In this document: positions 28,665-30,572 of the stretch, one piece after another
Position numbering within the stretch: the first letter of the stretch is position 1
Layout: every line of letters starts with the position of its first letter
DNA from: Nocardioides mangrovicus
GTDB taxonomy: Bacteria; Actinomycetota; Actinomycetes; Propionibacteriales; Nocardioidaceae
DNA: 37,563 nucleotides
Direction: 5' to 3'
NCBI RefSeq assembly: GCF_003674065.1
Contig: NZ_RDBE01000003.1
Coordinates: 15,572 to 53,134 of the forward strand
Position numbers and translations under genes: made by a program
The notes under the pieces: generated by a model
Told to the model about the DNA's origin: nothing
Seen by the model: only the letters and a program-made list of their open reading frames with translations
Database searches by the model: none

Positions 28665-28949
28665 TCAGACGGGCTCCTTGAACGGGTCGTGCTCGGCGAG
28701 GATCCGGTCCAGCCGGGCCTGGTCGAGCCGGCTGGAGAGCCCGGCCGACTCCTGGGCGTCGCGGACGACCTTGGCCAGCGTGAAGCACGAGGTCACCAAG
28801 AACATGACGCCGACGGCGAGGAAGGCGCGCATCCAGCCGTCGACGGGGAGATAGACGATGCCCAGCACGACGGAGAGCAGCGCGACGGCGAAGGCGATGC
28901 CGGCCTGGGCGAAGTAGGCGGAGGTGGTCTTGGCAGCAGGAGTGGTCAT
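28665..28949 (-). CDS. YiaA/YiaB-type two-helix membrane protein
   Basis: A 94-residue inner-membrane protein with two hydrophobic helices, about residues 13-35 (QAGIAFAVALLSVVLGI) and 40-60 (WMRAFLAVGVMFLVTSCFTLA). The helices, the LPVDGW turn and the FTLAKVVRDAQE sequence after the second helix match the YiaAB domain. The function of this family is unknown. ATG 28949 is preferred to an upstream GTG two codons earlier. It lies 48 bp after the serine-rich protein gene and probably in the same transcript. Confidence 0.8.
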   Translation of the reverse strand: MTTPAAKTTSAYFAQAGIAFAVALLSVVLGIVYLPVDGWMRAFLAVGVMFLVTSCFTLAKVVRDAQESAGLSSRLDQARLDRILAEHDPFKEPV

Positions 28950-28997
28950 GCGCACCAGCCTCGGCCGCTAGCCCGCGCCGCGGACCCGGGCCGCTGC

Positions 28998-29378
28998 TCA
29001 ACCGCGCTGAGTACGCGCACCCAGCACGACGGCGGTCAGCACCGCCGCTGCCGCTGGAGCCACCCACCGCGGCAACGTGCCCTCGCCGTGGCTCTCTGCC
29101 ACGGCATGGTCGGCGCGGTAGCTGAACGCCGAGCCCGACGCCTGCGCGGAGAACCACGACCCGAAGCTCTGCCAGGAGAACGCCGAGAACGCCGACATCG
29201 CCGACCCCACCGAGCCGAGGCTGGCGAACGAACCCACGCTGCCGATCGAGAGCACCGAGTACGACGAGCCGATGGAGAGCAACGACCCCTCCGAGGCGAT
29301 CGACCAGCGGGAGGGGGGCATGGGCGGGAGTCTGGCAGAGGCGTCGGTGGACGGGTGGGCGGTTTCCTCCACTCGCAT
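28998..29378 (-). CDS. Serine-triplet repeat protein with C-terminal membrane helix, unknown function
   Basis: A 126-residue protein of unknown function. From S26 to S77 every third residue is serine: 18 serines without a break, then S83 and S86 with Ala in place of S80. The two residues between serines are mostly Ile/Val/Leu/Phe/Ala and Gly/Ala, as in SIGSVGSFASLGS. A charged stretch (about 88-104) and a hydrophobic C-terminal helix (WVAPAAAAVLTAVVLGA, 105-121) follow. The serine codons mix TCG, TCC and AGC, so the pattern is held at protein level and is not a DNA microsatellite. ATG 29378 starts 17 bp after the methyltransferase stop. Similar serine/glycine proteins exist in actinobacteria as hypothetical proteins, as far as I recall. 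Confidence 0.75.
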   Translation of the reverse strand: MRVEETAHPSTDASARLPPMPPSRWSIASEGSLLSIGSSYSVLSIGSVGSFASLGSVGSAMSAFSAFSWQSFGSWFSAQASGSAFSYRADHAVAESHGEGTLPRWVAPAAAAVLTAVVLGARTQRG

Positions 29379-29395: not shown

Positions 29396-30169
29396 TCAGC
29401 TCCGGTGGGCCTGCGCCGAGGCGTAGAGGCAGACGGCGGCGGCGGTGGCCAGGTTGAGGCTCTCGGCGCGGCCGTGGATTGGGATCCGGACGCGGTGGTC
29501 GGCCAGCGCCGCCAGTTCCTCGGGCAGGCCCCACGCCTCGTTGCCGAACAGCCAGGCCGTCGGCGCCCCCAGCAGGTCGGTCGCGGCGAACAGATCGCGC
29601 TCCCCCGCGCCTTCGGCGGCCAGGACGCCCAGTCCGGCGTCGCGGCACAGCGTCACGGCCTCGGCCGGGTCGGCCACGCGCACCAGGGGCAGGTGGAAGA
29701 GCGAGCCGACGCTGGCGCGGACGGTCTTGGCGTTGTAGGGGTCGACGGTGTCGCCGGCCAGGACGATCGCGTCGGCGCCGGCGGCATCGGCGGTGCGCAC
29801 GATGGTGCCGGCGTTGCCGGGATCGCGGACGTCGGCGCACACGGCCACCAGCCGGGCTCCGCGCAGCACACCGGGATCGGCGTCCAGGGTGCGACAGAGG
29901 GCCACGATCCCCTGGGGGGTGACGGCGTCGGCCAACGAGGCAAGGGCGTCCTCGTCACAGCAGCTCCAGGCGGTGCCGGGGCCGTGCGCCTCGTCGTAGG
30001 CCTGCGCGGCGGCCGGGGTCGCGAAGACCTCGACGACGCAGCCGGGCACCCGAGCGGCCTCGCTCAGCGCCTTGGCGCCCTCGGCCAGGAACAGTCCCTG
30101 CTCGGCGCGGTGCTTGCGCTGCTGCAGGCGACGAGCCGCCTTGACCCGGCCGCTGCTGCGTCGCAGCAA
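29396..30169 (-). CDS. SpoU/TrmH-family RNA 2'-O-methyltransferase
   Basis: SPOUT-fold, SAM-dependent RNA ribose methyltransferase, about 257 residues. An N-terminal substrate-binding domain (VKAARRLQQRKHRAEQGLFLAEG) is followed by the three family motifs: VRDPGNAGTIVRTADAAGAD, WLFGNEAWGLPEE, and IPIHGRAESLNLATAAAVCLY with the knot. The target, 23S rRNA or tRNA, is not readable; similarity to TsnR-like enzymes beside rplT suggests rRNA. The start is uncertain: no ATG or GTG lies between the rplT stop and the first conserved residues. TTG 30169 is taken, and it lies inside a long hairpin. CTG 30166 or a start within rplT cannot be excluded. Confidence 0.88.
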   Translation of the reverse strand: MLRRSSGRVKAARRLQQRKHRAEQGLFLAEGAKALSEAARVPGCVVEVFATPAAAQAYDEAHGPGTAWSCCDEDALASLADAVTPQGIVALCRTLDADPGVLRGARLVAVCADVRDPGNAGTIVRTADAAGADAIVLAGDTVDPYNAKTVRASVGSLFHLPLVRVADPAEAVTLCRDAGLGVLAAEGAGERDLFAATDLLGAPTAWLFGNEAWGLPEELAALADHRVRIPIHGRAESLNLATAAAVCLYASAQAHRS

Positions 30170-30179
30170 CGGCCGGGTC
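30143..30179 (-). terminator. 18-bp hairpin between rplT and the methyltransferase
   Basis: GACCCGGCCGCTGCTGCG (30143-30160) and CGCAGCAACGGCCGGGTC (30162-30179) form a nearly perfect stem with one mismatch and a minimal loop. It begins 10 bases after the rplT stop. There is no U-run, so it resembles the U-less terminators of actinobacteria, but it also contains the likely TTG start of the next gene. Confidence 0.6.
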
Positions 30180-30188
30180 GGGTCCGCC

Positions 30189-30572
30189 TCAGGCAGTGGC
30201 CGGGGCGTTGACGTCGTCGGGCAGCGCGGCCCGAGCGGTCTCGACGAGCGCGGCGAAGGCCGGGGCGTCGGTGACGGCCAGGTCGGCCAGGATCTTGCGG
30301 TCGACCTCGACACCTGCGGCCTTGAGGCCCTGGATGAACCGGTTGTAGGTCATGCCGTTGGCGCGGGCGCCGGCGTTGATCCGCTGGATCCACAGCTTGC
30401 GGAAGTCGCCCTTCTTCTTGCGACGGTCGTTGTAGCTGTAGACCAGGGAGTGGGTGACCTGCTCCTTGGCCTTGCGGTAGAGCCGCGAGCGCTGGCCGCG
30501 GTAGCCCGAGGCGCGCTCCAGGGTCGTCCGACGCTTCTTCTGGGCGTTGACCGCCCGCTTCACGCGTGCCAC
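30189..30572 (-). CDS. rplT: Ribosomal protein L20
   Basis: Large-subunit protein bL20, 127 residues, which binds 23S rRNA early in assembly; in several bacteria it also represses its own operon. The basic N-terminus [25 protein letters not shown], read in parts, and the [21 protein letters not shown] block are diagnostic. GTG 30572 has AGAAGGAG upstream. A short Asp/Ala/Pro tail extends it slightly past the usual 117-120 residues. Middle to last gene of infC-rpmI-rplT. Confidence 0.97.

Follow-up and report, generated by a model that had tools for sequence, protein, structure and literature searches.

The stretch of DNA analysed here, referred to as the window, comprises 37,563 nucleotides of Nocardioides mangrovicus (contig NZ_RDBE01000003.1, positions 15,572 to 53,134). 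On its minus strand an ATG-started open reading frame of 126 amino acids is obtained by translation of positions 28998..29378; this was the frame of the initial annotation. Judged by its start signal, the likely true coding sequence on this strand is shorter (28998..29321) and runs from the ATG of M20 of the long frame to TGA, giving 107 amino acids. Residues 4-60 of the 107-residue product form a Ser-x-x array of 19 in-phase triplets (29142..29312, minus strand). Towards the C-terminus a hydrophobic helix, WVAPAAAAVLTAVVLGA, is predicted by AlphaFold2 (29016..29066, minus strand) and followed by a short basic end. A -10-like hexamer, CAGACT (29329..29334, minus strand), lies 7 nt before the ATG and was recognized by comparison of upstream regions as part of a putative promoter for leaderless mRNA. 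The neighbours on the same strand, both assigned by Pfam and not part of the feature, are a SpoU/TrmH-type RNA methyltransferase upstream (29396..30313) and a protein with a YiaAB two-helix domain downstream (28665..28955). The plus strand of 28998-29378 gives a translation unrelated to the array protein.

Initially, 18 serines in a strict period of three (S26-S77) had been described. This unbroken array is real and belongs to a run of 19: in the numbering of the 126-residue frame, serines occupy positions 23, 26, 29 and so forth up to 77. The phase is then broken by A80 and taken up again by S83 and S86. The longest in-phase serine run in 100,000 shuffles of the window protein was 11, and in 97,498 of them it did not exceed four. 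Serine is encoded in this frame by TCG (15), TCC (5), AGC (5) and TCT (1), which bears out the mixed codon usage reported before. The GC content by codon position is 58, 65 and 88 percent.

Relatives and distribution

A search with the single sequence yielded 156 relatives of the window protein. A profile search, of the kind proposed in the initial annotation as a check, scored 7991 candidates and returned at least 1547 proteins at E ≤ 1e-5. Among the relatives listed, the source names are "hypothetical" or "uncharacterized" protein, with one DUF4291 as the exception. At least 494 stretches were found to encode a relative in the contig search, and 80 of them were kept; 79 are titled actinobacterial and one "uncultured bacterium". 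Carriers include Nocardioides, Kribbella, Nocardia, Rhodococcus, Streptomyces, Kitasatospora, Janibacter, Leifsonia, Cellulomonas, Acidimicrobiia and others. The distribution is patchy, with a relative in 49 of 197 genomes of the same taxonomic family and in 41 of 396 genomes of the phylum.

For the window protein no Pfam match was obtained at E ≤ 1. With 42 members of the family only five Pfam families were matched, each in one member. The best of these, DUF4291 and DUF1801, are read as extra or read-through segments of the entries P0091 and P0059 and not as the array. None of four representatives matched PHROGs or PADLOC models at E ≤ 0.01, and neither the motif strings nor descriptions of Ser-X-X repeats were found in the literature of one open-access collection. 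Comparison of the sequences gives good support for a large, undescribed actinobacterial family of strict Ser-triplet, nonapeptide-repeat proteins. In the entry P0185 an IS240-type transposase domain runs in one frame into the array protein; this junction may be a read-through annotation or real.

Selection on the reading frame and on the serine sites

The initial annotation had taken the mixed serine codons as a sign of selection on the protein. Such selection was confirmed with 29 distinct arrays of Nocardia and Rhodococcus: in a simple pairwise count for this one lineage, which is not a likelihood estimate, omega was about 0.05 in the sense frame. No stop occurred in this frame, and codons with a single difference, compared pairwise, showed 8491 synonymous and 1156 non-synonymous changes. 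The five other frames of the same arrays gave omega values from 0.42 to 17, with stops in each. Purifying selection on the frame of the array protein is therefore strong. Furthermore, an array of at least 16 triplets was present in one open frame at 116 of 116 loci. Relatives lacking the period or with a broken frame, which according to the initial annotation would speak against such a protein, were not seen; this is a weak test, as the loci were found by similarity, were chosen by a pattern favouring serine and include duplicates, loci fetched twice and the window's own copy.

Serine is kept across the divide between TCN and AGY codons, with about 10.8% AGY among 2379 serine cells of 101 arrays, which were likewise chosen by the serine-favouring pattern. 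Compared with neighbouring open reading frames, TCG is over-used at the array serines (0.566 vs 0.367) and AGY is under-used (0.108 vs 0.270). This bias would fit an old repeat expansion from TCG combined with slow exchange at conserved serines. The over-use of TCG would also suit a repeat acting at the DNA or RNA level, an antisense product or a serine-sensing leader peptide, and the antisense frame whose third codon positions coincide with those of the sense frame reads as (E/D)-P-x repeats. However, this frame has an omega of 0.42 and 22 stops in the 29 arrays, against 0.05 and none in the sense frame, and a simple gene caller finds the nearest downstream open reading frame to be convergent at 26 of 41 loci. 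An explanation other than a protein is hardly credible. Antisense coding had come into consideration through the crude gene caller, which chose the opposite strand at some loci; it was rejected because of omega and the stops.

The strict conservation of the array was also found in the relatives. In the columns S26-S77 of 99 aligned proteins (1765 ungapped cells, 17 gaps), serine was counted 1718 times, cysteine 21, alanine 19, glycine three, proline two, leucine and isoleucine one time each, and threonine never. A larger count of 4240 in-phase cells from 186 proteins, taken from segments chosen for serine, contained 4148 serines, 49 alanines and 39 cysteines; threonine, histidine, proline and glycine occurred once each. 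A single base change turns a TCN codon into one for threonine or for alanine, hence the absence of threonine is not mutational. Since essentially only cysteine, alanine and glycine replace serine, and threonine does not, it is well supported by these alignments that small size is required at the serine sites. The absence of threonine points to tight packing at these sites, and it disfavours an array for serine phosphorylation, glycosylation or ice binding.

The nine-residue unit

Regarding the period of three, the initial annotation was right in that serine occurs at every third residue; the repeat unit itself, however, comprises nine residues and not three. The residue at position +2 after serine is identical with frequencies of 0.47, 0.36 and 0.29 at lags of 9, 18 and 27, compared with 0.16-0.21 at other lags, and identity at position +1 also peaks at lag 9 (0.28). 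A nonapeptide of three Ser-led triplets, approximately SIG-SVG-SVL, is thus well supported as the real unit by the sequences; SIG-SVG-SFA is an example from the window array. Both end anchors, the first S-x-L-S-I and the closing S-x-W-S, were present in 56 of the 101 loci tried, and in all but one of these (55 of 56) they are 10, 13, 16, 19 or 22 triplets apart. Alignment gaps nine residues wide are located inside the array and at its N-terminal end. The lengths of the charge-free stretches of 186 proteins cluster at 38-42 (65 proteins), 47-51 (78), 56-60 (28) and 63-65 residues (7).

The total number of Ser triplets per array ranges from 16 to 30 and shows no stepping in nines, with 21, 22, 23 and 24 all common. 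Therefore, the ends of the array appear to fray by single triplets, and stepping by whole units is confined to the stretch between the anchors and to the charge-free core. Steps of nine residues can also arise merely from recombination between DNA repeats of 27 bp.

Start codon and putative promoter

The first ATG of the long frame (29378) is probably not the true start; comparison of upstream regions points to the third in-frame start, M20 (29321). At this codon the sequence reads CAGACT-N7-ATG, as is typical of leaderless genes. It follows that the gene is probably transcribed alone, and a product of 107 amino acids with the N-terminus MPPSRWSIASEGS is likely. Of 107 distinct upstream regions, many of which are orthologous and thus not independent, 89 contain a -10-like hexamer ending 5-7 nt before an in-frame ATG or GTG, against an expectation of 10.55 regions from shuffled sequences with the same widened pattern. 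Out-of-frame ATG or GTG codons, used as control, were preceded by such a hexamer in 7 of 255 cases. The pattern, [TC]ANNNT or TA[GC]A[CA]C, was widened after the sequences had been inspected: [TC]ANNNT alone accounts for 61 of the 107 regions, and the added TA[GC]A[CA]C for 29, nearly all from Nocardia and Rhodococcus. In 18 of the 107 regions the signal was not found, and 11 of the 89 regions with the signal also contain a Shine-Dalgarno-like site. For leaderless actinobacterial genes, TANNNT about 12 bp upstream is described in a former study, which gives a leaderless share of 18.9% for the chromosomal genes of S. coelicolor (PMC3160421). A -10-like signal at about this distance of 12 bp from the start codon is present in the array gene. 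The predicted leaderless start is well supported by the comparison.

Genomic neighbourhood

The initial annotation had placed the gene among translation genes. Relatives of TrmH, YiaAB, the neighbouring kinase, PheS, RplT and RpmI were sought in all loci fetched up to that stage. Leaving aside the two copies of the window locus itself, the neighbours were not found at other array loci; the exceptions are L046, where a distant TrmH-like gene lies about 3 kb off, and L048, L072 and L098, which have distant kinases. Within the genus, the neighbouring kinase is present in 22 of 24 genomes. At the 21 other kinase loci of the genus TrmH lies within 1.5 kb in 12, and the array gene within 1.5 kb in none. 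As the neighbours are not shared, the setting is incidental and a functional link to the translation genes was rejected. In the genome G028 of the same genus, a YiaAB gene lies beside the kinase (L144, 2777-5442) with no array gene in 12 kb, and about 1.6 kb of other DNA separates it from TrmH. It seems that the kinase/TrmH spot takes up genes.

The scan of neighbours covered 76 proteins (of 163 listed) from 39 of 42 loci; a short or doubtful nearest open reading frame was replaced by the next one or left out. Among the 25 of 116 families listed, at most 3 of the 76 proteins had a family in common (ABC_tran). No linked partner of the array gene recurs, and the position of the gene varies from lineage to lineage. 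In six genomes of the same genus (L153-L158) it is located elsewhere: an ECF sigma factor lies nearby in four of them together with a YCII-like protein, and an alpha/beta hydrolase also in four of the six (all named by eye). A link to the cluster of this sigma factor was considered and rejected, because shared flanks within the genus explain the proximity; its homologues in the own genome are only 47% identical.

A mobile or selfish single gene, kept by transfer and having no function for the host, would account for the different places in different lineages and for the lack of the array gene beside the kinase at the 21 loci of the genus. Matches in eight Streptomyces plasmid records, obtained with a low-complexity filter that can hide arrays, and the P0185 entry continuing from a transposase domain also fit this explanation. 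In contrast, the place is shared within genera, purifying selection is strong and no linked mobility family is among the recurring neighbour families. Phage records gave no match either, in a BLAST search weakened by the same filter. Taken together, we consider mere mobility quite unlikely.

Charge, hydrophobic tail and predicted structure

In the middle third of the arrays the fraction of K+R is 0.001 and that of D+E is 0.000; K/R and most W sit in the end thirds. The central 40-60 residues are thus free of charge and flanked by charged residues and Trp. A charge-free stretch of at least 38 amino acids is present in 182 of 186 members, compared with 52 of 393 control open reading frames of similar length, some of which are spurious frames. 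The mean of the best 19-residue Kyte-Doolittle value of the array is 1.53, which is borderline hydrophobic. The hydropathy moment peaks at 120 degrees (0.83, against 0.16 at 100 degrees), as is also expected from polyproline-II, a bundle of which had been suggested in the initial annotation.

The membrane helix after the array, described in the initial annotation, is predicted as a hydrophobic helix in the window protein (residues 106-125; pLDDT of ten-residue blocks 77, 90 and 82), but it is not general. A hydrophobic C-terminal tail was found in 107 of 186 proteins and is missing in 79; by eye it is absent from several members of Nocardia and Rhodococcus and from short ones such as P0170 with 84 amino acids. 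A confident tail helix resulted for the window protein only, of the two proteins modelled with AlphaFold2. Anchoring by the C-terminus is consistent with this helix; as the middle of the array is free of charge, however, the array itself may be located within the membrane rather than only attached to it. The array has a pLDDT of about 40-63 in both models and no strands; a weak lean to helix in its C-terminal half speaks against a structure made of beta elements alone. A profile search of the PDB gave Gly-Ser linkers as the top three of ten matches; the other seven had E values from 0.001 to 1.3.

A soluble beta-solenoid or beta-roll would be built from half-turns of nine residues, each made of a strand (S-V-L-S-I) and a turn (G-S-x-G). 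Trp/Arg triplets would cap it, and in members with a tail helix this helix would hold it at the membrane. The period of nine and the whole-unit steps between the anchors agree with this fold, as do beta-branched residues and glycines at fixed unit positions and Trp with charge at both ends of the array. The middle units, however, have no charged residues to face the water, AlphaFold2 predicts no strands, and the three top PDB matches of ten are Gly-Ser linkers. We regard a soluble solenoid as rather unlikely.

For an alpha-helical hairpin the uncharged core of 40-60 residues would cross the bilayer twice, with a spiral stripe of serines packing the helices. The charge-free core between charged residues and Trp, the small residues at the serine sites and the helix in the C-terminal half of both models are in line with this arrangement. 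On the other hand, nine residues correspond to 2.5 helical turns, so that an insertion of this length would exchange the faces of the helix, but steps of nine are tolerated between the anchors; the hydropathy moment is high at 120 degrees and low at 100, and the confidence of the models is very low. A hairpin is therefore an unlikely structure.

The reading we tentatively place first is a small, autonomous, self-packing repeat protein associated with the membrane, with its own leaderless promoter and no recurring partner gene. The serine sites would be tightly packed and form a hydrogen-bonding ladder between stacked units or between chains. If the serines are packed inside, the exposed face consists only of V/I/L/G/A/F, which would suggest location in the membrane or self-assembly; the V/I/L/G faces would then meet lipid or other copies. 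The array might be buried within the membrane or at its surface, or inside a membrane-bound polymer formed by self-assembly, and could speculatively serve the cell envelope as a structural or permeability element. Against this reading it must be considered that the array is only borderline hydrophobic, that its serine and glycine make a poor ordinary membrane helix, that 79 of the 186 members have no hydrophobic tail, that the number of triplets per array shows no stepping in nines and that neither AlphaFold2 model predicts a confident fold for the array. A special form of this self-packing protein, in which the nine-residue units stack through or along the bilayer and the V/I/L/G surface surrounds a continuous ladder of serines, is conceivable and remains doubtful. 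If true, it would be a stacked module which grows by whole units and works alone, and it would represent a serine-lined conduit or a membrane-stiffening polymer in a wide range of Actinobacteria.

More than 1500 proteins have an array strict enough to admit hardly anything but small residues at every third position, and none of the searched model libraries (Pfam, NCBIfam, PHROGs, PADLOC) covers it. The array is encoded by a single small gene. Because the models gave no confident fold for it, it is a test case for the structure prediction of strict short repeats.

Comparison with known systems

With the model of HxsA4 (NCBIfam NF038313) the window protein reached 17.5 bits, compared with a cut-off of 55, and 37 of 42 members matched weakly (best E 2.7e-5). 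Besides this weak profile match, HxsA and HxsA4 share with the array protein the serine at every third residue over the array. On contig C22 of the own genome, a locus (L152, 4801-8715) encodes HxsB and HxsC and, by eye, a protein with an HxsA-like array as well as a probable HxsD. Like the array protein, this HxsA-like protein ends in a hydrophobic stretch and a basic end, also judged by eye.

A precursor of a peptide modified by a radical SAM enzyme, similar to HxsA or to a TVGG peptide, would explain the weak HxsA4 matches and the occurrence of HxsB and HxsC in the own genome. However, among the 14 array genomes tested this genome alone has both proteins over the cut-off, and they are encoded on C22, not on the array contig, beside their own HxsA-like gene. 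In the other 13 genomes neither HxsB nor HxsC exceeded the cut-off, which places the array family outside the Hxs system; weaker radical SAM matches are general in array genomes and controls alike. As a sign of a linked radical SAM gene, CxxxCxxC was found in called open reading frames of at least 150 amino acids at only 3 of 79 loci. Two of these three carry the same motif, which we presume to be MiaB-like. HxsA and HxsA4 differ further by histidine at the repeats and by their HxsB and HxsC, whereas the window array has no histidine at the repeat positions and the family no recurring linked maturase. We judge a role as such a precursor to be very improbable.

TvgA-type precursors are comparable in being small and having short repeats of hydrophobic, glycine and hydroxy residues; TvgA has a four-residue TVGG unit and is encoded beside genes for a radical SAM enzyme, an oxygenase and a transporter (PMC9062424). 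The array loci differ from this arrangement, as radical SAM, oxygenase or transporter genes do not recur among their neighbours.

RTX beta-roll units also comprise nine residues and carry a Gly/Asp signature for calcium. Measured against this general description, the array shares the nine-residue repeat, and it differs by its Ser-led triplets and charge-free middle. Designed Ser/Leu channel peptides follow a heptad with helical spacing. They resemble the array in the combination of serine with hydrophobic residues at membrane length; the array, in contrast, keeps a strict period of three within nine. A serine ladder enclosed in the membrane would set the array apart from the repeat architectures considered above.
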